From positions 310,001 through 374,000 of the forward strand of contig NZ_RKSM01000003.1 of NCBI RefSeq assembly GCF_008729015.1: 64,000 nucleotides of DNA, read 5' to 3'. This stretch comes from Haloarcula sp. CBA1129. Lineage in GTDB: Archaea > Halobacteriota > Halobacteria > Halobacteriales > Haloarculaceae. The notes beneath the pieces were generated by a model. That model saw nothing but the letters and a program-made list of their open reading frames with translations, was not told where the DNA came from and searched no databases. The position numbers were made by a program, and so were the translations under genes. How positions within the stretch are numbered: position 1 is the stretch's first letter; the number at the start of each line of letters is the position of its first letter. This document shows positions 36,164 to 53,531 of the stretch, piece after piece.

Positions 36164-36353
36164 TGTACTGAGTGGTTGTCGTCAGCTGGTATAAGATTAT
36201 GGCGCTAATTTGTAGAGAGTGACACTAATTCGGCTGATTTGAATGAATAATGCCATCTATCAGAAGCGGTGTTCGGTTTGCAAGTGATATACTCAATTAC
36301 AGTTGTGAGGATTACACACTTACGGAATGGTTCAACTGCTTAGAAATACAGAA

Positions 36354-36389
36354 AGCCCACTCCAGAGAGATCCCTCTCCTGAGTGGGCT
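36354..36389 (-). terminator. Hairpin at the end of the rRNA operon
   Basis: AGCCCACTC and GAGTGGGCT pair, with further pairing of AGAGAG and CTCTC in the interior. It lies 15 bp beyond the 5S gene, and on the minus strand the stem is followed by TTCTGTATTTCT. This is consistent with a terminator or 3' processing site. Confidence 0.6.
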
Positions 36390-36404
36390 ATGATAGGTAT
36401 GAAT

Positions 36405-36526
36405 GGTGGCGGCGAACCGCGTTTCCCAGAGGCTCGCGCACTCCAGTACTCCCCGGAACGCTGGTGGGCTTATCTTCCGTGTTCGGGATGGGTACGGGAG
36501 GCAACCCCACCGCTATGGCCGCCTAA
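36405..36526 (-). rRNA. rrf: 5S ribosomal RNA
   Basis: 122 nt. On the minus strand it begins TTAGGCGGCCATAGCGGTGG and ends CCGCCACC, so the ends pair as in 5S helix I. The internal sequence includes the conserved CCCATCCCGAACACGG. It is the last gene of the operon; no tRNA follows it. Confidence 0.95.
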
Positions 36527-36527
36527 C

Positions 36528-36661
36528 GTCGAGTCACGGAATCGAACCGTGAAAGTACCAGTCTCGATCAACACTCCACCGTGTGTCCGTGCGATCCAGT
36601 TTGCGCCTGGACTCGGTCAGCGACGAGATAATTCGTCGGTGAATGAGTCACAGTGCGTATG
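36528..36661 (-). other. 23S-5S spacer with processing-stem arm and a tRNA-like 3' half
   Basis: 36579-36617 is the 3' arm of the 23S processing stem (partner 39607-39645). 36528-36551 on the minus strand reads CACGG, TTCGATT, CCGTG, ACTCGAC, which is the T-arm and 3' acceptor strand of a tRNA; no D-arm or anticodon arm precedes it, so it would be a tRNA relic. Confidence 0.6.
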
Positions 36662-39583
<2,922 letters not shown>

Positions 39584-39958
39584 CGTCGTTGTGACTCGTT
39601 CAACTGAACGAGTCCAGTGGACGCCTGGATCGCACGTACACACGGTTTCATTCTCGCCCCCAAGGTGGAGATGGTGGGCGAATCGACCCTTCCCAAGCGC
39701 GGTTTCACCCGGCTTGGTGCATCTGTCGTCGTACCACACTCGAACGCCGTCCCACACTTAAGGGGACGGATTCGGCGGTGGTACGAAGTACGGACCCGTC
39801 GGGAGTTGCACCCGACATCCCCGTGAGGGGATATCCGCCTCGGATAGGTCGTGTGAGCCCAGCGGGCCCATGCAGTAGTCGGCGCTTACCGACTCGCGGT
39901 GACTTGTGGTCACCAGTCAATGTAGGTGGGTCAGGGCAAAGCCCTGATCCCGGTCAGT
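39584..39958 (-). other. 16S-23S internal transcribed spacer without a canonical tRNA
   Basis: The spacer is about 375 nt. It contains the 3' arm of the 16S processing stem (39854-39880) and the 5' arm of the 23S stem (39607-39645). Between them lie perfect hairpins (GTCGGG/CCCGAC, ATCCCC/GGGGAT, TATCCG/CGGATA), but no complete tRNA-Ala, which many haloarchaeal operons carry here. Confidence 0.75.
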
Positions 39959-41430
<1,472 letters not shown>

Positions 41431-41700
41431 GTGCTGATATACATCAGCGGCGGAAGTGGTTGCACTCCGTCGGAAGCTAACACACTGGTTCCTACGCCAG
41501 TGTTGACTACTGCATGGGTCCGTGGGCTCACATCAGATTCCATCTTGACGGCGGACCGCAGGGGTGGAATCCTCATGGGATGAAACCTCGCCAACCCCAG
41601 AAGGGAAGGCGAGAATTTCTCGTAGCTCGGCCGACCTAGGTGGCCACCCGAGCGTGTCGACCCGGGCTCGCTGCCCGGTGCGACCTTCGCATCATATCCG
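41431..41700 (-). other. 16S leader with 5' processing-stem arm
   Basis: The transcribed leader of the operon. 41505-41530 is the 5' arm that pairs with 39854-39880 to loop out the 16S precursor. The pairing covers TGAGCCCA, CGG and CCCATGCAGTAGTC with small internal bulges, the form cut by the archaeal splicing endonuclease at bulge-helix-bulge motifs. Confidence 0.7.
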
Positions 41701-41710
41701 ATGGGAGGGG

Positions 41711-41722
41711 AGTATATAAATG
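41711..41722 (-). promoter_or_regulatory. rRNA operon core promoter
   Basis: On the minus strand CCATTTATATACT is a strong TATA element, about 25-30 bp before the probable start near 41690 (GATATGATGCGAAGG). It is the closest promoter to 16S; other promoters may lie further upstream, as in other haloarchaeal rrn operons. Confidence 0.7.
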
Positions 41723-42365
41723 GACGGTCTCGAACCGGCCGTGTTCAGCCGTCACACAGGATATGTGTCGCATACACACTATCAAGACCTCACAGAGCAT
41801 TACCGGTTAACCTGACCTGATTCACTTGTTCTGTCGTGATGAGTCATCGATGTTGGTTGAACGCCGCGAGTCGAGGACAGAGTCGTCGCTGTCGGCGACG
41901 GTTCGCCACTGATGCGACAGCGTAGCCACTCCCAAGGAGGCTTCTCCGGTCAGTAACTACCGGTTGAACCTGTCATTAGGTAGCCGGTTCGTGCGGGCGA
42001 CCCGGCCACTGAGAGGGCTGTCTATGCAGTCCGTCGAACCATATTGACCAATCCTTGTACGGCCGCCCCCAGAGACGACGGTCGCTCCGGTGGGGCGTTG
42101 CTACGTATTTGTAGTCACGGAGGCGTGTTGTGCGTCTGTGGGTGACACCCTGACATCGACGCCCCAGTTTCGTGTGCTCTGCACTGTTATTTAGCTTCTT
42201 GTGCTTCCGAGATATTTGAGAAATAAGTTACCAGATTAGACCTGAATAAGTATCATTTGAAGACCATTTCATATTAATATTACATGTGTATTATATTAGT
42301 GACATGGGAAAGTACTGTCCATCCAAAAGACATATTCGTAACTGCAGCATAGGTACAATGTCGAC
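41723..42365. other. Upstream region of the rRNA operon
   Basis: About 640 bp with no gene. Several GGTTCGA/GGTTCAA repeats occur on the minus strand (for example near 41733, 41867, 41965 and 42035) and may mark additional rrn promoters or regulator sites. Near 42275-42300 an AT-rich run (ATTAATATTACATGTG) could be the promoter of the plus-strand gene at 42366. Confidence 0.5.
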
Positions 42366-42719
42366 ATGCCCTCCAGCAGTCGTAAGCTTCTCTCGACGAC
42401 CAGTGAACAGTGGCGTCTGGCGCGTGAAGACCTCCACGTCAGAAACACCACGGATACCAAGCGTGATATCGGCATAGAAATATACGACGACAACAAAGTG
42501 TGTTGTCATACGGCACACTATCAGCTCTTGTCAGGCCAGTCCGGCTGTTCGGTCAACTTGCTACAGGCTGGCTGCTACAAGGTTAAAGCCGTTCTCGATC
42601 AACAACACGAATCAGTCGCTACCGTGACAGTCTCTGATGAACCCGAACAGACTATTTTCATCCACATTCAGAACGAAGGGATCACAATCAAGGAAGGAGT
42701 GACTCCCTCGCGTACCTGA
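42366..42719 (+). CDS. Haloarchaeal hypothetical protein, beta-sandwich-like
   Basis: 117 residues. The pattern VRNTTDTKRDIGIEIYDDNK, then YQLLSGQSGCSVNLLQAGCYKVKAVLDQQHESVATVTVSDEPEQTIFIHIQNEGITI, alternates short strands as in an Ig-like or CARDB-like fold, and has four cysteines. No signal peptide or membrane segment is present. I do not recognise a named family. It lies just upstream of the DUF7139-salactin pair and reads the same way, so it could belong to the same functional unit. Confidence 0.55.
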   Translation: MPSSSRKLLSTTSEQWRLAREDLHVRNTTDTKRDIGIEIYDDNKVCCHTAHYQLLSGQSGCSVNLLQAGCYKVKAVLDQQHESVATVTVSDEPEQTIFIHIQNEGITIKEGVTPSRT

Positions 42720-42817
42720 ACCAGCGTGTTGCATCTTCCCCTCCCCCTTGCAGGCAGGATTGAACGAGATAGGGTAAGCCTATCTTTAACACCCATCCGA
42801 ACGAAATAACAAATTGA

Positions 42818-43774
42818 ATGAGCTCTGCATCTACATCGGACAGGTCCCCCGAGTCTGCCGATCCCGTGTCGGGCTATCGTGACACGCTTACATCGCTTTA
42901 TCGCGAATATGTCGGTGAACCAGCCAAAGAGCGAGACATCTATGTTGGATTTGGCCTCTTCTTCGCTGGGGTCACGCTTGCCATCGTCGGATTCTGCCTC
43001 TTTCTGTACAGTAACGTTCTAGAATCCGGGAGCACACTGTACTGGCAGATTCGTGAGGTTGCGCTCGTCGTCGGGTTCATCGGACTGCCCTCCGTGCTGT
43101 TGAGCGTCGTCGTGCTCCTCCCGGTCGGTTTCAAAACTCGGATCGTTAGTGCCGCTGGCACGTTATTCTGTCTCGCCGCAACCATAATTCTGGTTGATGT
43201 CTTTCCGTATGGATGGACGAATAGTGGCGGAATCAACGGTAGCGTCTGGACAATCAGCGTTTACGCCACTGGGCTGGTCATGCTTGCGGCCTCGACAGGG
43301 GCGGCGCTGGTTGCACACTACCTCGAGAAAGCGACAAGCACAGGCGAGTCAACTGAACCGGTTGAGTCGGCCGAGAGCGAGTCTGAGTCTGTCAGCAAAG
43401 CAGATGTGGACAACGATATCGAACAGGCACTAGAAGGGGCGGAACTATCGTGGGGTGGCGTCGAACAGCAGCCCAAAACTAAGCGGTTAAATCTGGATAT
43501 GCCAGAAACGGACTCGGACCTCGATCGGACGGCTATCGAGAATTCTGAGGCAACCACGACCCGAGCCGACAGCAATGATGTTGATGACGCGGTGGATGGG
43601 CTCAGGCAGCTACAGGGTGGCCAATCAAAGACTGAGCGAAGCGCCGGCACCGAAGATCAGGTCAACGCTCTCACGCAGTTTCGAAATGAGCAGGGCGAAG
43701 ATGACGATGTGGAAACCGGTGTCAAAGAGCAACAAGGCATTGTTAGTCGTCTTCGGTCATGGTTTTTTGAATAA
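42818..43774 (+). CDS. DUF7139-type membrane protein upstream of the actin gene
   Basis: 318 residues. An acidic N-terminal region is followed by four membrane segments (about 48-68, 83-105, 113-128 and 147-170) and then a long acidic, Ser/Glu/Asp-rich cytoplasmic tail of about 150 residues. The tail has low complexity but conserved-looking short motifs (LSWGG, LNLDMPE, VDGLRQLQGG, NALTQFR). Its place immediately before the actin-like gene (169 bp gap) suggests a membrane anchor or partner for the filament; that is inference. The DUF label is from memory of the haloarchaeal family. Confidence 0.75.
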   Translation: MSSASTSDRSPESADPVSGYRDTLTSLYREYVGEPAKERDIYVGFGLFFAGVTLAIVGFCLFLYSNVLESGSTLYWQIREVALVVGFIGLPSVLLSVVVLLPVGFKTRIVSAAGTLFCLAATIILVDVFPYGWTNSGGINGSVWTISVYATGLVMLAASTGAALVAHYLEKATSTGESTEPVESAESESESVSKADVDNDIEQALEGAELSWGGVEQQPKTKRLNLDMPETDSDLDRTAIENSEATTTRADSNDVDDAVDGLRQLQGGQSKTERSAGTEDQVNALTQFRNEQGEDDDVETGVKEQQGIVSRLRSWFFE

Positions 43775-43872
43775 GCGGACTGAACTCCTCCACAGACACT
43801 CCGCTGTGCTTCTCTCGTTGCGTGAGTGTGATCGTATTATTATGTCCCTACGAGTCAGTCAATCTGAGTTTT

Positions 43873-43932
43873 CATAAATAAAAGGTTACTTGTTGGAACA
43901 AAACAGGATAGTTTTTTCAACTTGGTGGGAGG
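43873..43932 (+). promoter_or_regulatory. Promoter and ribosome-binding site of the actin-like gene
   Basis: TCATAAATAAAA at 43873-43884 is a TATA element, and GGAGG at 43928-43932 lies 11 bp before ATG 43944. The transcript would have a leader of about 35 nt with a real Shine-Dalgarno, unusual among the mostly leaderless haloarchaeal genes. It supports the 43944 start over 43890. Confidence 0.65.
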
Positions 43933-43943
43933 AATACAACTGT

Positions 43944-44972
43944 ATGCCCCAAGGTCTCGATGTCGGTACGATGAACCTCCTGTCTGCACGTCAAGACGGT
44001 AACGAGACGGTATTCGTGCAGCAGCGGAACTCTTTCGTCGAAATTGACTACAGCGACATGGCCGAACAGATGCTGTCGAGAAGTGATGTTCTCCACATCC
44101 GCAAGGATGACCGGGTCTACATCGTTGGCGATGACGCCCTGAATTTCGCGAACATCTTCAGTGAGGAGACACGCCGCCCGATGCAAGCCGGGATACTCTC
44201 AAGCGACGAGCAATCAGCGATCCCGATGATTAAGCTCATTACTGAACAGGTGGTGGGACAGCCGGAGTTCCCGAACGAGCGCCTGTTTTTCTCGGTTCCT
44301 GCGGACCCAATCGATGCCGATGTCTCGACACTGTATCATCAGAAGACGATCGAATCCCTGCTCACTGATATGGGCTACAGCCCAGAACCGATCAATGAAG
44401 GGATGGCCGTCATCTACTCCGAGCTTGCAAATCGTGAGTTCACCGGACTCGGTATCAGCTTTGGCGCCGGAATGACCAACGTTTGTCTGTCATACTATGC
44501 GGTCCCCGTAATGAAGTTCTCTATCGCACGTGGTGGCGACTGGATCGACGAGCAGGCTGCACAGGCAACAGGCACACCCGTAGATAAGGTTACCTCCGTT
44601 AAAGAAGAAGACTTCGCGCTCAATTTCGAGACGGACGTCGGCGGTATCGAAGGTGCGCTGAGTATCTATTACGACAATCTGCTCGACTATGTCATCGAAA
44701 ACATCATCAGTGAGGTCGATGAGGAAGATGTCGAGGAGGGACTAGATGTCCCGGTCGTCGTGACTGGTGGGACATCCAGTCCTGACGGCTTCGAAGAGCT
44801 GTTTGCCGAACGGATCAACGAATCTGAGATACCGTTCTCGATCAGTGACGTCCGCCAAGCCGAGAATCCACTATATAGTGTCGCACAGGGTGCACTCGTC
44901 GCAGCGCGGTCGGAAGAAGAGCGCGAGGGGCAAAGCGAGCAGACCGAAGAACCTGACACCACCGCCGAGTAA
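43944..44972 (+). CDS. Salactin-like actin/MreB-fold ATPase
   Basis: 342 residues from ATG 43944. The actin nucleotide-binding motifs are present: phosphate 1 [14 protein letters not shown], connect 1 [22 protein letters not shown] (phosphate 2 region) and [23 protein letters not shown] (adenosine motif). It is shorter than the 370-residue-plus MreB consensus and ends in an acidic low-complexity tail. It fits the haloarchaeal actin group that includes Halobacterium salactin, a polymer reported to form dynamic filaments that help partition DNA. Identity is based on motifs and remembered similarity. The DUF7139 gene precedes it; a CetZ-like gene is 3 kb downstream. Confidence 0.85.
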
Positions 44973-45062
44973 CGGTTGGTCTCGAATAGAAGCACGGTTC
45001 ACCGGCGTCAGTCGGGATACACTACTGGTCCTCGTTTCAGGTAATACAACCGACGTCGGAGG

Positions 45063-45536
45063 CTACTCGGTTTCTGCCCCGTTTTTATCGGCTTCAGTTT
45101 CCGTATTTTGACTGTTTTCGTCGCTCTCGTCGCATTTGGCTGTAACCGCTCTGCGCTGTTCAGTTTCCCTCTCGTCGATAACGCGGTTCAGTTCGTCAGC
45201 GGCATCCTGTCGGAGCTTGTTCACGTCAGACCCTAAAGAGACACCCACCGCGACACCAGCCTGTTCAAGCGAGAACTCTGGTCGGTCTGTGGGCTCGTCC
45301 CTTTCTGGAATCGGAACGCTGGGTGTACGGCCAGTATTTTCGGGTTTACCGAGGTTAGAATCAGGATGCTGGTTGAAACGAGCGAGAGCGAATTCCCATG
45401 ACTCTGGAGGGGATGCCTCGTTGTGATGCGACGCAGAGATGTCCGCGAAGCCGCACGATTCACAGACGATCGCTGTCTGGTCGGCGGTCGCAAGCGTATA
45501 CGTGCTGAGGTCGGAGTCGCAGCGGGGACACCGCAT
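45063..45536 (-). CDS. Zinc-ribbon protein with acidic tail
   Basis: 157 residues. The N-terminus has one zinc ribbon, MRCPRCDSDLSTY, then IVCESCGFADI (CPxC and CxxC, 23 residues apart). A second conserved-looking part, PESWEFALARFNQ and SLEQAGVAVGVSLGSDVNKLRQDAADELNRVIDERE, may be a helical hairpin, and the tail is acidic and disordered. It converges on the actin gene, with about 90 bp between the stop codons, and is divergent from the next gene. Family and function are not known to me. Confidence 0.7.
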   Translation of the reverse strand: MRCPRCDSDLSTYTLATADQTAIVCESCGFADISASHHNEASPPESWEFALARFNQHPDSNLGKPENTGRTPSVPIPERDEPTDRPEFSLEQAGVAVGVSLGSDVNKLRQDAADELNRVIDERETEQRRAVTAKCDESDENSQNTETEADKNGAETE

Positions 45537-45617
45537 ACTACACTATGCGTGTCTCTCCTATACAATGGTTCCGTCAGTTCTCGCCGTTTAGGGAACGAGT
45601 TATGAGATGGGCGACCG

Positions 45618-46316
45618 ATGGTGGAGGCAATGCCGGAGATCGAGATTACAGACACGCAACAGGCGGATTTGGCATCGGTTAAGGATGATCTTGAAGACGC
45701 ATTCATCGAGACATACGGTCATATTCGCACGCAAGATGTCGTTGACTACCTCCTCGACACATACACACCGCCGGACAAGCTCGAAGACGAGCAAGGCATA
45801 GGCCGTACCGACTACGAGCGTATTGCCTCGGCTGAGTATCCGGAGCTCCAACACATTGCGTCTGAGGTGCCGGAAGTTCCCGGGAGCGGTATTGAGGCCG
45901 ACGAGATGCGAGGGAAACTCCTCTCAGCACTTGGAACGAGTGAACTTGCGGCTCGCCTCGCGGATATCGAACCTGAACAAAGAGCGAACGAAGGGGATGA
46001 GGGTGAGGCGGCCGCCAACCCAACTAGGGCAGGGGACATGCCAGACGACGGCGTCGCACAGAACAGTACGTCGACACAGACCAGTTCGTCGCCCGACACC
46101 ACCGAAAGCTCCGACGCGGCCGAGTCGACCGAGGCACCTGACGACACTCCGAGTGACACTCTTTCCGCTGCCAACCGCTTGTTAACCGAACATGACGAGA
46201 AGTGGACCCGATCAGACGAGAATGACGAACCATACGAAGTCACACTCCCCGACGGTTCCACGGTAAGCGCACGGACGAAAGACGACGTCCGAAAACTACT
46301 GTTTCAAAACTACTGA
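45618..46316 (+). CDS. Haloarchaeal hypothetical protein with helical N- and C-terminal domains
   Basis: 232 residues (a start at 45630, preceded by GGTGGAGG, is also possible). The N-terminal domain of about 110 residues (IEITDTQQADLASVKDDLEDAF and HIRTQDVVDYLLDTYTPP) is helical and ends before an acidic Ser/Thr/Glu linker. The C-terminal 45 residues, YEVTLPDGSTVSARTKDDVRKLLFQNY, look like a small folded end. It is divergent from the zinc-ribbon gene with an 81-bp shared promoter region. I know no function. Confidence 0.65.
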   Translation: MVEAMPEIEITDTQQADLASVKDDLEDAFIETYGHIRTQDVVDYLLDTYTPPDKLEDEQGIGRTDYERIASAEYPELQHIASEVPEVPGSGIEADEMRGKLLSALGTSELAARLADIEPEQRANEGDEGEAAANPTRAGDMPDDGVAQNSTSTQTSSSPDTTESSDAAESTEAPDDTPSDTLSAANRLLTEHDEKWTRSDENDEPYEVTLPDGSTVSARTKDDVRKLLFQNY

Positions 46317-46368
46317 ACGGACTCTAGTCGCGAAAATACCGGCTGACATCGACCACCTCTCCACGAAG

Positions 46369-47157
46369 TTACGCCGCATCGGGCGACGACGACTCACTAT
46401 CCGCTACGTCCTCGAGGTAGCCGACCCGACACTGTGGGCACACATCACCGGTAAAGAACGACGATTTACTCACGGGGAGCTCGAACCCACACCTTGGACA
46501 CTGATACGTCGGAACCGAGTCGCTTGTAGTATGTTTTGAGTGGGCCGCCGTATGCGAATGCCCGTCTCGACCGTTGCCAGTATCCGATTTTTCGGGGGTT
46601 TCAGACGACGAGTCTGCCGTGCCTGTAGCAGCATCATCAATGATGACTGCACCGTCACTATTCGGCGGCGTGTAGTTGTCGTCATCCGGTTCTTGTGTCT
46701 CTGACGCAGGCAGTATCACGGCGTCATCGGTCGTCTCCAGACGCGCCGATTCGGTCGCCGCTGATGGCTCGCCACTCGCCTCCGCATCTGGAGATGGTTC
46801 TGCCACGTTGTCTGACACGGTCACCGTCGATGCGGGCGTATCGGTCGGTTCCGGTTCGTCCGTCGCCTGCATCGGGTCTGTCGCTTCAGCCCTGTCCTCT
46901 GCATGCTCTCCCACCCCCGTTTGCCGCTTGGTTTCGGTTCTGTGTTCGACGTCATCCGACTCCTCGCTATTTGCTTTCGAGTCTTCTATGGTCGATATCA
47001 GGCCTTGGTTCTCAGAGATATCCCAGATATGCTCACAGCGCTTGCAAGACCTGTATTCCCGAACAGTCAGAACAGTGCCGCGCTTGCCTTCGTCATACGA
47101 CTTCTCTATCGTCGACTCCCCGAAGTCGTGTCCAAATAGCTCACAGCGCAGTCCCAT
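46369..47157 (-). CDS. DUF7093-type protein with terminal zinc ribbons
   Basis: 262 residues. The N-terminus starts MGLRCELFGHDFG and has a CKRC knuckle (SCKRCEHIWDI); the C-terminus has another zinc ribbon, YQCPRCGFELPVSKSSFFTGDVCPQCRVGYLEDV. The middle 130 residues are an acidic, Thr/Ser/Pro/Ala-rich disordered linker. The MGLRCELFGHDF opening with separate C-terminal ribbon matches the haloarchaeal DUF7093 group as I remember it. It converges on the previous gene, with 53 bp between. Role unknown; nucleic-acid binding is possible. Confidence 0.72.
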   Translation of the reverse strand: MGLRCELFGHDFGESTIEKSYDEGKRGTVLTVREYRSCKRCEHIWDISENQGLISTIEDSKANSEESDDVEHRTETKRQTGVGEHAEDRAEATDPMQATDEPEPTDTPASTVTVSDNVAEPSPDAEASGEPSAATESARLETTDDAVILPASETQEPDDDNYTPPNSDGAVIIDDAATGTADSSSETPEKSDTGNGRDGHSHTAAHSKHTTSDSVPTYQCPRCGFELPVSKSSFFTGDVCPQCRVGYLEDVADSESSSPDAA

Positions 47158-47405
47158 GCGCGGTCATTTACTTCGTACCGTTAAGAAGGTATTCACCAGC
47201 AGTGACATCTATGCCACGAGAGACGCAGGCGGAAACGTCTCTGTGGCCATCCTTGCGCCGAACATCGACTGAATAGGGGCAGTCTATGAAAGAGTCTAAA
47301 CAAGGCCTGTTGCTAGCAAGTATTGTTGGTTACTACAGGGTAGTTCTAAGCCAGTCGGTGCCTGATGGAGGCAGTACAGAAGGGACCATCCATAACGAGA
47401 ACTAG

Positions 47406-47900
47406 TCAGCAGTCTCGGAGTCGTCCCCCTACTCGGACAGTGATACCCTCTTCGCGAGCGTAGTCTGCGGCGATCTTGAACGGGGGACCGAACGAATCGG
47501 CGGTTGCTTCGTGTGGAATCGGCCAGTCATCGCTGGCTGTGACGGAGGAGTTGGTTGCGAGTCTGTACTCTCGACTGACTTCCAGATTCTGGCCGTTGAC
47601 TGCCACACTGATTAGCCGTCCAGTCTCAGAATCGAACTCAACGGTCATCCCGCTGTCGTCGCCATGCCAGAGCCGTCCGTCGTCGCGGTGGGGACGGAAG
47701 GCCGCATCAAGAGGGTCCGTAGTTGCCCACCAGAGACATGGAGGGCTTCTACCTTGCCGACGAAGGGGTTTATGCTGGCTATCTCTCCAGCAGTGACCTC
47801 GCCGGATAGGGGTCGCTCTACCCGAGCATCTACATTGCTCGTCCACAGTAAAGGCCGGCCGTCTTGGTCCCATCGGCGGGGCCACCGACGTTGCTGGGTG
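47406..47900 (-). pseudogene. 5'-nucleotidase / metallophosphatase C-terminal remnant
   Basis: Two frames make up a 5'-nucleotidase C-terminal domain: RPLSGEVTAGEIASINPFVG followed by KVEALHVSGGQLRTLL (about 47698-47820), and then SGMTVEFDSETGRLISVAVN followed by GQNLEVSREYRLATNSSVT (to about 47540). The order is correct but a frameshift near 47650 separates them, and the N-terminal metallophosphatase domain is absent. It is a decayed gene, probably left by a recombination event. Confidence 0.72.
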
Positions 47901-47970
47901 AGATTTGCTGCCTCTCAGGTAGAAGCAGGATTAACTGGAGTCCCCTCCAGTTGGTACAAATGCAGTCTCC

Positions 47971-49077
47971 TCATCTTGAGTCTTCGACCAGCGTTTTGAG
48001 TTCCGTCAGGCGCGGGAGTTCTGTGACGCCGCTAAGCACGACCAGTACCGACAACGTGTCCCGGTCGGGCGTGGGCATATCACCGCTCCGAACCTCCGGT
48101 GACTGGAGTTCCTCCGTGAGCCATCGCCGACCGTCTGTAACGGCATCCCGAATCAACCACGCGGGTGGCCCGGCAAACACGGCCAGAGCCCTGTCGGCTG
48201 AATCTAGTTCGCACTCCGCCGTCAGTTTGCCACGCACCGCTCGGCGAAGTGTCGTCTCGACGGCGTTGTATGCCTCGATTTCATCGACATCCTCGGATTC
48301 GCCGCCGAGAAAACGGTTCCTGAGCTGGTCTATAACTGTCCCGTTATCGCGGCCATCGTTCGCTTGCAGTTCCTGACTGGCATAGCCAAGCGTTGTGAAA
48401 CCCGAGTCTGAGAAGGTATTGATTATCTCACTGGCGTCGACGACACTCTGGCCCACAGCATCGGCTGCCGTCGCCTCACCAGCTGCGAATAACGCACCCA
48501 GCCGCGTCACAACGGTCTCGTTCAGCGTCTCGGTGGCTGCCTCGACCGTCTGCCCACTCCCAAGCCACACGTCGTTGTCGAACAGTATCTGCCCGTCGAC
48601 GGTCGCTTCCAGCGCCCGGAGTGCTTGGAGCGTGTTTGTGGCTGCTCCGTTGTCCCTGCCGGCAGGCAACACCGATAGACAGTAGACGGGAATCGTGTAA
48701 ATCTCTCGGAGTGCGGCAGCGATGTGGGCCGTAGTGCCACTGCCCGTCCCGCCAGCAAGCCCGGCCACGAGAAGGATGGCGTCGATGTCGCTCGTTACCA
48801 GTTGGTCTAGCGCCCGTCGTACTTCGAGCCGTTCGTCTTCGATGGCGGCGGTGCCAGTCGTCCGGTCCCCGTTCGTCCCAGTCCCATTTGTTTCGGAGAG
48901 TCCAAAGGTATACCGCCGGTCGTCCGGGAGTGCGTCGAGTTCGTCGAGCGCTTCGGTGTCCGTATCGATGGCACAGGCCGCCCCGAGATACGTCGTATCG
49001 CGGCGTTTGTTGTCCTGCCACAGCCGCTCAACGATCCGGCCCCCAGCGCCGCCGATTCCGACTGCCGCGACTCGCAT
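47971..49077 (-). CDS. CetZ/FtsZ-family tubulin-like GTPase
   Basis: 368 residues. It opens MRVAAVGIGGAGGRIVERLW (the first nucleotide loop) and has the tubulin signature in VAGLAGGTGSGTTAHIAAAL (about 120-140). The following YTIPVYCLSVLPAGRDNGAATNTLQALRALEATVDGQILFDNDVW matches the CetZ pattern (VLP, N..RS/AL, FDND) more than true FtsZ. It has an insert with NGTGTNGDRTTGT at about 65-80. CetZ proteins control cell shape, motility and surface traits in haloarchaea. It is a divergent member, so which CetZ subgroup cannot be stated. It is divergently placed next to the FAD monooxygenase. Confidence 0.85.
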   Translation of the reverse strand: MRVAAVGIGGAGGRIVERLWQDNKRRDTTYLGAACAIDTDTEALDELDALPDDRRYTFGLSETNGTGTNGDRTTGTAAIEDERLEVRRALDQLVTSDIDAILLVAGLAGGTGSGTTAHIAAALREIYTIPVYCLSVLPAGRDNGAATNTLQALRALEATVDGQILFDNDVWLGSGQTVEAATETLNETVVTRLGALFAAGEATAADAVGQSVVDASEIINTFSDSGFTTLGYASQELQANDGRDNGTVIDQLRNRFLGGESEDVDEIEAYNAVETTLRRAVRGKLTAECELDSADRALAVFAGPPAWLIRDAVTDGRRWLTEELQSPEVRSGDMPTPDRDTLSVLVVLSGVTELPRLTELKTLVEDSR

Positions 49078-49273
49078 ACGTCGTGTTTAGTGTAGACTGA
49101 CATTAATAGTCCGACTCGGTTCGATGTCACCGCCGCGAGTCCGTAGCAGAACGATTTACAGCGAAATCATCACAAAAGCGTCACTAGAGCCGCACAGAGC
49201 TGATATCCGGGAGCGAGCGTGTCACTGCCCGGCAAACCAGTGGCCTTTCATACGGCAGGCGCTGAAGAGGTCT

Positions 49274-50422
49274 GTGTCCCAAGACCTCGCCAACGAACCA
49301 GCCGATTCCGTGTCTGTTACCATCTCCGGCGGGTCGATGGGCGGCCTGTTTACCGGCATCGCTCTCGACAGTGCAGGCCACGACGTAACTATCGCCGAGC
49401 AATCGACTGGCACCCTCCGAAGCCGCGGCGGCGGCATCGTCGCCCAACAATCAATTCGCCAGTTCCTCTCACGTCACGACATCGTCGACCCGACAAACAT
49501 AACCACCCGAGCCAGTGAACGTCGCTTTCTGACTGCTAACGGCGATGTTCGGACGTCAAAAGCGGATTCGATGGTGTTTACGTCTTGGGACGCGGTCTAC
49601 CGACAGTTGCGGGCAGCGTTCCCGGATGACCGGTACCACACCGGCCGGACGGTCACGGGAATCAGGGCCACAGACGGCACGGTTCGATTCGCCGATGGGG
49701 AGCAGACTACCACAGAGCTGGTCGTCGCTGCCGACGGCGGGCAGTCCACAGCACGTGAGCAGCTGTTTCCCGACACCGAGGCTACGTTTGCCGACTACGT
49801 CGCCTGGCGTGGTGTCGTCCCGGAAGCAGACCTTTCGGACACAGTCATCGACGCGTTCGATGGCCGTTTCACGTTTTATCAGGGGGAACGAATGCTTATT
49901 CTCGCGTACTTCATCCCCGGTGGAGACGGCAGCACAGCCCCCGGAGACCGCCGTCTCAACTGGGTCTGGTACGACACACTCTCCGGGCGAGAGCGTGAGA
50001 CTGTCTTCACAGACACGACTGGCACGAACCACCAGTTCAGCGTCTCACCGGGACAGCTCCAAGATCCCGTCGAAACTCGCCAGCGTGAGCGGGCGACCGA
50101 GATACTGCCACCTGTGTTTGCCGACCTCGTTGCAACAACAGCAACCCCCTTTGTGCAGGCGATTTACGATCTCCAGAGCCCCCAGATGACAGTCGGCAGG
50201 GCCTGTCTGCTGGGTGATGCGGCGTTCGTCGCGCGACCGCATACTGCTGCCGGCACTGCAAAGGCGGCCAGTGACGCCGTTGAACTCAAGGCTGCCCTCG
50301 GCCGCCACAGTTCGCTTGGAGGCGCACTGGCGTCTTGGGACGAGGCCCGGACCGACTACGGAGAGCGGCTCGTTGCGCAGGGCAAGCGGATGGGCGACGA
50401 ACGGTTGTCCCTCGGGAGTTGA
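49274..50422 (+). CDS. FAD-dependent monooxygenase (PHBH-type)
   Basis: 382 residues from GTG 49274 (VSQDLANEPADSVSVTISGG); an ATG start at 49124 adds 50 unlikely residues. Motifs of the aromatic-hydroxylase family are VTISGGSMGGLFTGIALDSAGHDVTIAEQS (FAD-binding strand, with GGSMGG in place of GxGxxG), the region DGGQSTAREQL (GD-like) and LLGDAAFVARPHTAAGTAKAASDA (the LGDAAH-type FAD motif). The substrate is unknown; related haloarchaeal proteins are annotated as 2-polyprenyl-6-methoxyphenol hydroxylase-like. There is no adjacent aromatic pathway gene. Confidence 0.84.
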   Translation: MSQDLANEPADSVSVTISGGSMGGLFTGIALDSAGHDVTIAEQSTGTLRSRGGGIVAQQSIRQFLSRHDIVDPTNITTRASERRFLTANGDVRTSKADSMVFTSWDAVYRQLRAAFPDDRYHTGRTVTGIRATDGTVRFADGEQTTTELVVAADGGQSTAREQLFPDTEATFADYVAWRGVVPEADLSDTVIDAFDGRFTFYQGERMLILAYFIPGGDGSTAPGDRRLNWVWYDTLSGRERETVFTDTTGTNHQFSVSPGQLQDPVETRQRERATEILPPVFADLVATTATPFVQAIYDLQSPQMTVGRACLLGDAAFVARPHTAAGTAKAASDAVELKAALGRHSSLGGALASWDEARTDYGERLVAQGKRMGDERLSLGS

Positions 50423-50543
50423 TGGACGACCGTTCTACGTGTGGGTGCTCTCGGGTCTGGATCCGGTACTGGCCCCTAGCGTCCCTTCTCGCGTTGTAAG
50501 AATGGAGGGAATGTTACTTGTCTTCCGCCCCAATAGTCGGCAC

Positions 50544-51053
50544 ATGACACTCGTTGTGCCGTTCGACGGCTCCGAACTGGCTGAGGCAGCACTCGTCCGG
50601 GCGACGGAGTTCGGCACAGTCTTCGAGGAGGACGTGTTGGCCGTCAGCGTCATCCGGAAAGGGAATGCGAAATACGCTCGGGAACGCGACTGGCTCAAGC
50701 CAAACGAGGAATTCGACCTAGAGACAGTCGTCACCTCGCTACACGAACAGGTGATGGACCTGTGTCCGAGTTCTGATTTTCGACATACGGTCGTGGATCG
50801 ATACGCGCCGGCTGGGGCTGTCGCGAAAGCCATTCGCAAGCTGGCCAAGAGAGAAGACGCGTCAATGGTGTTCATCGGAAGCGAAAACGCCGGCCATCTC
50901 GTCACAGGCATCAGCAGCGTTGGGGGGTCAATCGCATCGGACGACGCCTACGACGTCGTCATCGTTCGACATCGAAACCCATCCAAAATCGCCAAGCTCA
51001 GGGACTCGTCCCCGCACAGGCAACCGAAATCCGATTTTTATCTCCCGGAATAG
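50544..51053 (+). CDS. Single-domain universal stress protein
   Basis: 169 residues from ATG 50544 (MTLVVPFDGSELAEAAL). The Usp fold is clear from that start and from the C-terminal VFIGSENAGHLVTGISSVGGSIASDDAYDVVIVRHR, which corresponds to the nucleotide-binding motif with some residues replaced (GSENAG for the usual GxxG). It lies 121 bp after the monooxygenase in the same direction. A long basic C-terminal tail (SKIAKLRDSSPHRQPKSDF) extends past the usual end. An extended frame upstream from 50214 was rejected because it overlaps the monooxygenase gene. Confidence 0.85.
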   Translation: MTLVVPFDGSELAEAALVRATEFGTVFEEDVLAVSVIRKGNAKYARERDWLKPNEEFDLETVVTSLHEQVMDLCPSSDFRHTVVDRYAPAGAVAKAIRKLAKREDASMVFIGSENAGHLVTGISSVGGSIASDDAYDVVIVRHRNPSKIAKLRDSSPHRQPKSDFYLPE

Positions 51054-51921
51054 GTGGCGATAGTCGTTCCGCAAGACAGGTATTGAAGAGTCACCAGCAC
51101 TCGGCTCGTGGTTTTCTAACAGGGAAGTAACAGCTTGCGAGACGGCCGAAAGAGTGACAGTCATTCCGGGACTCTCGCCGGTGTTTCCTGCGAAGAAATG
51201 GTCGTACCTGCGACGCTTCCGCTGACAATCAGCTGGGCAATTCACCCTTTCCGATAGCGCGTTCGTTGCCGCGCAACAATCGCAGAACCGATAAACTGCA
51301 AGCAGACATCACAGGAGTTTTTGTTACCAAATGTATATCGGTCAGTTGGGTTCTGGTCCTTGCTCCATTTCCCCGAATCCAACTCAAATCATCGATTGGC
51401 CCGAGTCCAGAACCTGTCGTCGTGGATGACGACTTTGAATGGTGTTGCACGCCACTCCCCCCGGCTGCCCACCATTCGTTTACTACCCTGAAGTAAGGAA
51501 CTGGAGATCCTCGTGACACTTATCGGGAAGTTCGACTGGCGTCATGCCGTGTCTCGCCAGCAGCGAAGCGGCTACAGAGTGGTTTGAACACTTCTTCGTC
51601 GATCTGGCTATGATGGAGTTATCGTGGTCAAGTTTTCCGCGACGAGCACCAACAAGCGAACCCCAGAAGAACACTCAGGTATTCGGACCGTGGCAAGGCC
51701 TCGATGTCCTATTCTCCTTCCAGAATGACTTGCCTCGTGACGCTGTATCCAGAGATACTGGGATTTGCAAAACGGAGAAGGGGAAAACCAGGTTGGCAGA
51801 CACTGGCGTTGGCCCCACTGGCTATATATACCGCAAACACATAAGTCTTTTGACAGGTATTCTATAATATTATGTTCCCAAATAGACGGAGAATAGTAGG
51901 CGATACGAGCTGGAGGCTCGC
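51054..51921. other. Long gap before the phn genes
   Basis: No gene supported in about 870 bp. Frames up to 107 codons occur on both strands (for example 51544-51867 plus and 51483-51674 minus) but they have no recognisable domain and no haloarchaeal composition. The stretch contains a few TATA-like runs (near 51827). It may hold the scar of an earlier insertion. Confidence 0.45.
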
Positions 51922-52716
51922 CTACATTACTTTCTTGCGCAGATAGGCCGAGATAGCTTCACTGATGAGCACAAGGCCCAGAATCGAGATGAGAATCGTC
52001 AGGACTGCTTCCCAATTGAAGTAATTAATCTCGGTCTGTAGCGGGACGCCGATACCGCCTGCACCGACGAACCCAATGATCGTCGACGCTCTGACGTTGA
52101 TATCCCAGCGAAGCGTCGCGACACTGATGAACGCCGGCTTGATCTGTGGAACGATACTGTAGATGAGTACATCAACGGGTGATGCCCCAGCTGCAGTGAT
52201 CGCTTCGACAGACCCGCGGTCGATTTCCTCGATAGCTTCCGCGATTAGCTTTGCAGTGAATCCGATTGACCTGATCGAGATCGCCAGCACGCCAGCGAGG
52301 GCCCCGGGTCCAAAGATGACCACGAAGATCAGTGCCCAGATGATGACGTTGACCGACCGGGTAAACGAGATGATGAACTTACCCAGCAGGTACGCGGGCT
52401 TGTTGGGTGTCGTGTTGCTGGCGCCGAGGAACGCAACTGGGACGGCCATCACGATGGCCAGTGCCGTGCCGAGAATCGAGATATTGATTGTCTCGAGCAG
52501 CGGCCCCACAATCTTCCGGGAGTATCCCACATTAGGAGGATACATCCGGCCGAAGAGGTCGGCCAGCTCACGCGGGGCAGTCACGGCATAGCCGTAATTC
52601 ACTTCCATGGCGCGCCAAGCTGCGACGAGAATGACAAGTCCGGCCAGCAGCCCGAAGAACCGGAGCAAGCGCTCACGTCGATCGAACCGACTCCAAGAGT
52701 CAGTGCTGTTTGACAT
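51922..52716 (-). CDS. phnE: Phosphonate/phosphate ABC permease PhnE, second copy
   Basis: 264 residues with six predicted membrane segments and the ABC permease contact loop around LAEAIEEIDRGSVEAITAAGASPVDVLIYSIVPQIKPAFISV. PhnE-type markers are NISILGTALAIVMAVPVAFLGA and WDINVRASTIIGFVGAGGIGVPLQTEINYFNW. It overlaps the preceding permease stop codon by one base (TAATG), so the two are co-translated and probably form a heterodimeric channel for the PhnC ATPase and PhnD binding protein. Substrate may be phosphonate, phosphite or phosphate. Confidence 0.9.
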   Translation of the reverse strand: MSNSTDSWSRFDRRERLLRFFGLLAGLVILVAAWRAMEVNYGYAVTAPRELADLFGRMYPPNVGYSRKIVGPLLETINISILGTALAIVMAVPVAFLGASNTTPNKPAYLLGKFIISFTRSVNVIIWALIFVVIFGPGALAGVLAISIRSIGFTAKLIAEAIEEIDRGSVEAITAAGASPVDVLIYSIVPQIKPAFISVATLRWDINVRASTIIGFVGAGGIGVPLQTEINYFNWEAVLTILISILGLVLISEAISAYLRKKVM

Positions 52717-53531
52717 TATTGGATCCGCCTCCGGACGAGAGCGCTGACACCTTCACCGACCATGACGATCGCCACGATGACAGCGATAATCGCCATGCTG
52801 AACTGGTAATCGTACTTATCGAAGGAGTTCAGCAGCGTGATCCCGATACCACCCGCTCCGACAATCCCGACGACAGTGCTGTGACGGAGGTTGATGTCCA
52901 GCCGGTAGATCGACAGTCCAACAATCCGGGGCATTACCTGTGGGAGAACGCCATAGACATACGTCTGGACAGGCGTCCCGCCGACAGCAGTGATCGCCTC
53001 CATCTGCCCACGGTCGATATCTTCGATTTCCTCTGCGAGGAGTTTCGCGAAGAATCCGATAGTTTTGAAAGCGAGTGCTAGGACACCAGCGAGCGGACCG
53101 AACCCGACCGCTTTGACCATAACAATCGCAACAATGAGCTCGTGGAGTGAGCGCGTGACGGCAACAATGCTGCGACCGACGTAGTACACTGGCTTCGGCG
53201 AGAGGTTGTTGGAAGCCATGACAGCGACCGGCACGCTGACGATGATACCGATTGTCGTGGCGACAATCGTCATCACAATACTCTCGAGGATACCCTGTAT
53301 GAGGAGTTCCCGTTGCGACGGAGTGTACGCTGGCGGGAGCATACTCGAGACGAGCTCGACACCGGCGCCAATTCCTCGCAGAAATCGGCTGGGGGAAATC
53401 CGAAGGTTCCAGAAGCTATACGCGAAGAACAACAAGATAAGCCCGTAGATGAGATACTTGACTTTCTTGTTGTAGAAGGCTGTGGGTCGCTCCCACGATC
53501 CTTCAACAGCCGATCCAGATTCAGCAGCCAT
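52716..53531 (-). CDS. phnE: Phosphonate/phosphate ABC permease PhnE, first copy
   Basis: 271 residues, homologous to the next permease and with the same WRLDINLRHSTVVGIVGAGGIGITL and LAEEIEDIDRGQMEAITAVGGTPVQTYVYGVLPQVMPRIVG segments. The cytoplasmic N-terminus of about 30 residues is acidic and then basic. It is translated 5 bp after phnC and overlaps the second permease. Two different permeases in one phn operon are the norm in haloarchaea and in several bacteria. Confidence 0.9.
   Translation of the reverse strand: MAAESGSAVEGSWERPTAFYNKKVKYLIYGLILLFFAYSFWNLRISPSRFLRGIGAGVELVSSMLPPAYTPSQRELLIQGILESIVMTIVATTIGIIVSVPVAVMASNNLSPKPVYYVGRSIVAVTRSLHELIVAIVMVKAVGFGPLAGVLALAFKTIGFFAKLLAEEIEDIDRGQMEAITAVGGTPVQTYVYGVLPQVMPRIVGLSIYRLDINLRHSTVVGIVGAGGIGITLLNSFDKYDYQFSMAIIAVIVAIVMVGEGVSALVRRRIQ

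Follow-up and report, generated by a model that had tools for sequence, protein, structure and literature searches.

The window analysed here is a 64,000-nt stretch of the genome of Haloarcula sp. CBA1129, to which all positions refer as a whole, and the locus in question lies on a 528-kb replicon of the assembly (contig C3). Within a segment termed block A, an open reading frame (ORF) at 42366, a gene for a DUF7139 membrane protein, the actin gene volA, and the zinc-ribbon, 45630 and DUF7093 genes follow one another in this order (Table 1), and a CetZ tubulin gene lies beyond the right end of the block, 3.0 kb from the actin gene. A first-pass annotation had recognised a CetZ-like tubulin about 3 kb from the actin, a membrane protein with a long acidic tail immediately upstream of the actin gene, and three small proteins, two of them with zinc ribbons, all of which were confirmed; its reading of the actin as salactin-like, and its suggestion that the cluster is a cytoskeletal locus in which DNA partition and cell shape are connected, are revised below. 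The analysis centres on the actin and the DUF7139 protein, whose genes proved to be inherited together almost without exception.

The window actin matched the Volactin family PF25216 along profile positions 1-321, i.e., the whole actin domain, and shared 78-90% identity with other haloarchaeal volactins; judged by these matches, it is a volactin, the cell-shape actin. Its score against the salactin family PF25229 was only 17.9 bits (E 0.0017), below the cut-off of 27.1 bits, and the true salactin of the same genome (PF25229 E 4e-186) is encoded on another replicon, the main chromosome, so that the salactin assignment was rejected. The proposed link to DNA partition falls away with it, because the actin is not salactin-like, and volactin (VolA, HVO_2015 in Haloferax volcanii) acts in disk shape according to PMC10869688. 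Dynamic filaments and the promotion of disk shape are known only for the Hfx. volcanii volactin, whose filament tips contact the membrane in published images, for which volactin-binding factors were invoked as unknown, and whose gene seemed essential (PMC10869688). The window actin belongs to the same family, and Haloferax shares the order DUF7139, volA, zinc ribbon, whereas another CetZ follows in Haloferax. Salactin, the partition actin of Halobacterium salinarum, is likewise haloarchaeal, and is described as dynamically unstable and anchored at one place, the cell poles (cited in PMC10869688), but forms a separate family, which sets the volactin system for shape apart from the salactin system for partition. 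A sequence search of solved structures at E 1e-5 yielded no match to volactin. Volactin was missing from about 40% of the sampled haloarchaea, three g45 (Haloferax) genomes among them.

Co-occurrence was assessed in 242 Halobacteria genomes, each at least 90% complete. Full-length volactin was detected in 143 genomes and volA-type DUF7139 in 144; both were present in 143, volA alone in none, DUF7139 alone in one, and neither in 98 (Fisher 2e-68, relatedness ignored). The lone DUF7139-only genome (G218) is a 180-contig assembly that holds both accessory genes (zinc ribbon and 45630), and its volA was therefore probably lost in an assembly gap. Presence and absence of the two genes co-varied in at least nine mixed genera (g1, g2, g8, g18, g28, g29, g30, g37 and g45). 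The genes lay adjacent on the same strand for 120 of 144 volA copies, with a median gap of 115 nt between domain ends, and at 59 of the 77 named volA loci (80 in total) that had enough upstream sequence, the gene immediately preceding volA in the same orientation was DUF7139, a proximity far beyond chance. The 24 non-adjacent copies came mostly from genus g8 (Halorubrum-like), and every such genome contained both genes; the separation is real on several complete g8 chromosomes, and a few of the 24 cases are contig breaks (e.g., G118, with volA at contig base 92). Moreover, two g8 genomes (G169 and G236) were without both genes, and in G048 a 146-aa (amino acid) ORF begins as DUF7139 and finishes as volA, indicating that one deletion took out both. 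By this co-inheritance with volA, the membrane protein suspected in the first-pass annotation to anchor filaments proved the right candidate gene. Two complete volA-DUF7139 sets were present in the Haloarcula genomes G003 (contigs C6/C7) and G028 (C40/C22).

Outside the haloarchaea, volactin above the cut-off was also detected in other families of their phylum (f19, f21 and f22). At all 20 such loci retrieved, a gene was located directly upstream on the same strand, with a gap of -35 to 168 nt (within 12 nt in 11/20), and all 20 upstream genes encode proteins of 223-305 aa with three or four hydrophobic segments. The haloarchaeal hidden Markov model (HMM) matched 17 of the 20 proteins at E <1e-3, and the PF23600 cut-off was passed by all seven that were scanned with Pfam, including two of the three missed by the HMM. 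Profile-profile comparison of the haloarchaeal with these non-haloarchaeal proteins gave a probability of 99.3% (E 1.9e-20), with an alignment that starts at the first membrane helix and includes the tail; outside the haloarchaea the tail is retained at the profile level, though without the residues WGGVE. No other widely shared gene was found between the haloarchaeal and non-haloarchaeal volA neighbourhoods. Volactin-like actins, 33-44% identical, were additionally identified on 13 viral-classed contigs (L137-L149, IMG/VR), and no four-helix membrane neighbour was seen in their available flanks, indicating that the pairing is not universal to volactin-like actins. Proteins of ~775-1230 aa that join a second volactin domain to a long coiled-coil-like stretch were noted in some other haloarchaea (L246 2811-6362, L247 2478-5897, L231 6484-8811 and L230 4741-7341; three scanned with Pfam).

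The AlphaFold2 model of the window DUF7139 protein contained helices at residues 38-65, 73-100, 105-128 and 140-176, with a predicted local distance difference test (pLDDT) score mostly >85, and a 142-residue acidic tail (36 D/E vs 13 K/R) that was largely disordered apart from helices at 194-207, 255-267, 278-297 and 308-316. Given the four membrane helices, the topology is predicted to be N-in/C-in, with the tail in the cytoplasm. The best conserved segment of the protein, ELSWGGVEQ, belongs to this tail and had a mean column entropy of 0.75 bits, compared with 1.72 for the membrane helices; the other conserved tail segments are a helix ahead of WGGVE, VDxxVxGLxxLxGG...DDQxxxLxELR, and an amphipathic helix at the very end. 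DUF7139 genes occur in multiple copies, and those next to volA make up a subfamily of their own, recognised by a full-length HMM score >250 bits, whereas paralogues reach at most ~120; the window protein scored 404.9 bits at full length including the tail and bears the motif SWGGVE. A WGGV-type motif was present in 107 of 111 volA-type proteins and in none of the genuine paralogues, the lone motif-bearing apparent paralogue (in L096) being a fragment of a volA-type protein. That all DUF7139 proteins are volactin partners was rejected, as one subfamily alone tracks volA. Another DUF7139 paralogue, mostly ~280-370 aa and without the WGGVE tail, was observed ~7-10 kb from CetZ in many genomes (e.g., G002, G008, G010, G013, G033 and G055).

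The near-exceptionless co-inheritance, which holds also in distant archaea and where the genes are unlinked, suggests that DUF7139 probably ties volactin filaments to the membrane. The functional unit would then consist, as we consider reasonably likely, of volactin and the volA-type DUF7139 encoded upstream of it, the tail of which would fix the filament tips at the membrane; DUF7139 fits the gap in tip attachment best, because it has a conserved cytoplasmic motif and is never missing where volactin occurs. In such a mechanism, the four-helix protein would present its conserved short segments on the cytoplasmic tail, the tail would bind volactin and hold the filament tips, and the tip-fixed filaments would reach across the cytoplasm and sustain the disk shape, with the zinc-ribbon and 45630 proteins added in haloarchaea, probably as regulators. 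The topology of the membrane protein, its binding to volactin, the anchoring of the tips and the regulatory roles are inferred here. This arrangement would work like MreB-RodZ, in which an actin filament is paired with a dedicated membrane protein carrying a cytoplasmic actin-binding part. RodZ combines one membrane helix with a cytoplasmic helix-turn-helix domain, whereas DUF7139 has four helices, a short-motif tail and no helix-turn-helix in the model or in Pfam, and no homology between the two was detected. More tentatively, and as a possibility that we hold slightly doubtful, DUF7139 might be an ancient archaeal actin-membrane adaptor predating the split of haloarchaea from the other volactin lineages, with a tail that captures or nucleates filament ends, to which haloarchaea added a two-protein regulation of the rod-to-disk transition. 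A literature search returned no paper naming DUF7139 or HVO_2016, which judging by gene order is the DUF7139 gene ahead of volA in Hfx. volcanii, although Supplementary Note 4 of PMC10869688 may hold a partial mention; the main text of that paper, which leaves the treatment of the region to this note, names neither the upstream membrane protein nor the co-inheritance. DUF7139, as the one gene never missing with volactin across haloarchaea and other archaeal families, is hence a named and directly testable candidate for actin-membrane attachment in archaea, in a genetically tractable model.

Several points weigh against an anchoring role. The DUF7139 tail was modelled at low confidence (pLDDT ~40-80), a Foldseek search of the model against the PDB gave nothing significant for the membrane domain (best E 0.28), the presence/absence counts are phylogenetically non-independent, with the nine mixed genera as a rough minimum of events, and tight co-inheritance would also suit a role in regulation or mechanosensing, or that of a filament client. 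DUF7139 could thus be a volactin partner but no anchor, e.g., a membrane sensor or regulator of polymerisation, or a client positioned by the filament; the co-occurrence counts support this equally, as do the multi-helix membrane domain without a known fold and the further DUF7139 paralogues of haloarchaea, whose presence even in genomes without volactin indicates that the domain by itself is no default actin anchor. We nevertheless regard a non-anchoring partner as rather unlikely, since the WGGVE tail is peculiar to the volA-type subfamily, which points to direct cytoplasmic contact, and the membrane is already the known end point of filament tips (PMC10869688). It is also conceivable, but improbable, that DUF7139-volA is an old operon whose genes stay together through co-regulation or joint loss and are in no direct functional contact; the short gaps and overlaps at the non-haloarchaeal loci would suit co-translation, yet the pair persists in genomes that have the two genes unlinked and is jointly missing from two genomes of the same genus, and the conserved DUF7139 tail is likewise at odds with such an account.

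The idea of a conserved actin-tubulin cytoskeleton locus joining DNA partition and cell shape has been largely refuted and is very improbable. By its domains, the tubulin of the window is a genuine CetZ (PF00091 E 1.3e-29, together with the CetZ C-terminal domain PF21011) and resembles CetZ1 and CetZ2 (PDB 4b45 and 4b46; E 5.6e-76 to 4b46), but its clade is distinct from the Haloferax volA-adjacent clade and from the one that holds the main conserved CetZ. In favour of a shared locus, CetZ was found in the available flanks of nine of the 80 named volA loci, eight of the nine being Haloferax (~1.6 kb from volA in 8/8 loci) and one Halorubrum (3.6 kb), and hvo_2013, named CetZ5 in PMC10927574, to hvo_2020 are listed among the shape regions in PMC10869688 (2024), a line of which had already noted the closeness of CetZ and volA in Haloferax. 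However, no CetZ was found in the available flanks of the remaining 71 named loci, and in the CetZ tree the window, Haloferax volA-side and Halorubrum ezzemoulense copies fell into different clades, the window copy grouping with like copies of other Haloarcula and not being a CetZ5 orthologue. Furthermore, the CetZ gene belongs to a second block, B, which begins at 47294, carries a weak nucleotidase-like remnant, CetZ and further genes, and is collinear in sister Haloarcula; in these, volA and CetZ are at least 94 kb apart or on different contigs (148 kb in G012, 94 kb in G028). The junction of the two blocks is private to this genome: among 32 Haloarcula genomes, a contiguous match to an 801-nt junction probe was found in no other genome and solely on contigs C3 and C5 of the strain's own assembly, while 11 other Haloarcula matched parts of the probe separately or in part, never across, with sister matches ending at base 361 (left) or starting at base 395 (right). 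Coupling of actin and CetZ in Haloarcula was thereby ruled out by block comparison, junction probe and CetZ tree, and the identity of the actin, which is no salactin, speaks against the shared locus as well. CetZ is a passive neighbour that adjoins volA only via a rearrangement on this replicon, and the picture of a joint actin-tubulin locus is thereby corrected; the part of the proposed cytoskeleton locus that stands is volactin with DUF7139, CetZ being elsewhere in all sister Haloarcula examined. The three unrelated CetZ-volA proximities are mildly above the ~1 roughly expected (our own estimate, from 3 CetZ genes in 3.7 Mb), which leaves room for a weak attraction.

Among the accessory genes, the zinc-ribbon protein had strong matches in 140 of the 143 volA-positive genomes and elsewhere solely in G218, with a weak match in G139 (E 1.4e-8), and its gene was present at 56 of the 80 named volA loci. 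The 45630 family (A5) was found in 123 genomes, all of them volA-positive save G218, and was unlinked in many. In Halorubrum-like genomes, both accessory genes stay with DUF7139 where volA is elsewhere, and neither protein was detected at the non-haloarchaeal volactin loci. Judging from these distributions, the two proteins are additions of haloarchaea alone to the volactin module, and they probably act as regulators. The 45630 protein comprises an N-terminal helical domain and a conserved C-terminal LLxxHxxKW...RTKDDVRxxLFxxY domain, its fold model being of low confidence; a part in regulation is a guess, prompted by a Rho_N/SAP-like segment in several orthologues and an N-terminus that looks ribbon-helix-helix-like by eye. 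DUF7093 was rejected as a general member of the module: the family is near-universal (59/60 genomes), mostly distant from volA and near it at only 8 of the 80 named loci, and its position beside volA is therefore probably incidental outside Haloarcula. Checked beyond this strain, the gene order proposed in the first-pass annotation held decisively for DUF7139-volA and partly for the zinc-ribbon and 45630 genes, but not for CetZ, nor generally for DUF7093 outside Haloarcula.

Table 1. Features of the volA locus and its surroundings (positions in the window).
Feature	Position	Strand	Remarks
Block A, conserved in Haloarcula	42231..47260	.	Sister genomes are collinear over it (84-89% identity), and collinearity ends there
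117-aa protein	42366..42719	+	In only some Haloarcula copies of block A (10 loci)
volA-type DUF7139 membrane protein, 318 aa	42818..43774	+	PF23600 E 1.6e-39
Coding sequence of the ELSWGGVEQ tail motif (residues 209-217)	43442..43468	+	Candidate volactin-contact motif, from conservation
DUF7139-volA intergenic region, 169 nt	43775..43943	+	A+T-rich element; GGGAGG ahead of the volA ATG
volA, volactin, 342 aa	43944..44972	+	PF25216 E 2.8e-133
Zinc-ribbon protein, convergent with volA	45063..45536	-	CPRC-x-CxxCG-x-H-x-ESWxxAxxRF
45630 gene, putative nucleic-acid-binding accessory protein	45618/45630..46316	+	Rho_N/SAP-like segment in several orthologues
DUF7093 protein, C-terminal CxxC...CxxC zinc ribbon	46369..47157	-	PF23373 E 8e-22
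Strain-specific junction, block A to CetZ block	47260..47294	.	801-nt probe
Short weak match to 5'-nucleotidase C-terminal domain	47406..47885	-	PF02872 E 0.012, below cut-off; CetZ block
CetZ tubulin, Haloarcula second-replicon clade	47971..49077	-	CetZ_C (PF21011) E 1.1e-51

The volA start is the ATG used by the family, the TTG at 43890 being a mechanical extension, and the elements read in the intergenic region ahead of it make an own volA promoter possible. Pfam and NCBIfam scans of the 117-aa protein gave no match, and the nucleotidase-like stretch beside the junction is probably a gene remnant. In addition, a complete rRNA operon (36404-41430) lies ~0.8 kb left of the cluster, outside the conserved block. 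Contig C4 of the strain's own assembly carries a frameshifted volA, and contig C5 holds a 99.7% repeat of window positions 36345-53125 in which indels and frameshifts are scattered, the repeated region being joined at the rRNA operon to main-chromosome sequence (C1:1439782-1442140); the C4 and C5 copies reflect either recombination between rRNA operons or an assembly chimera.

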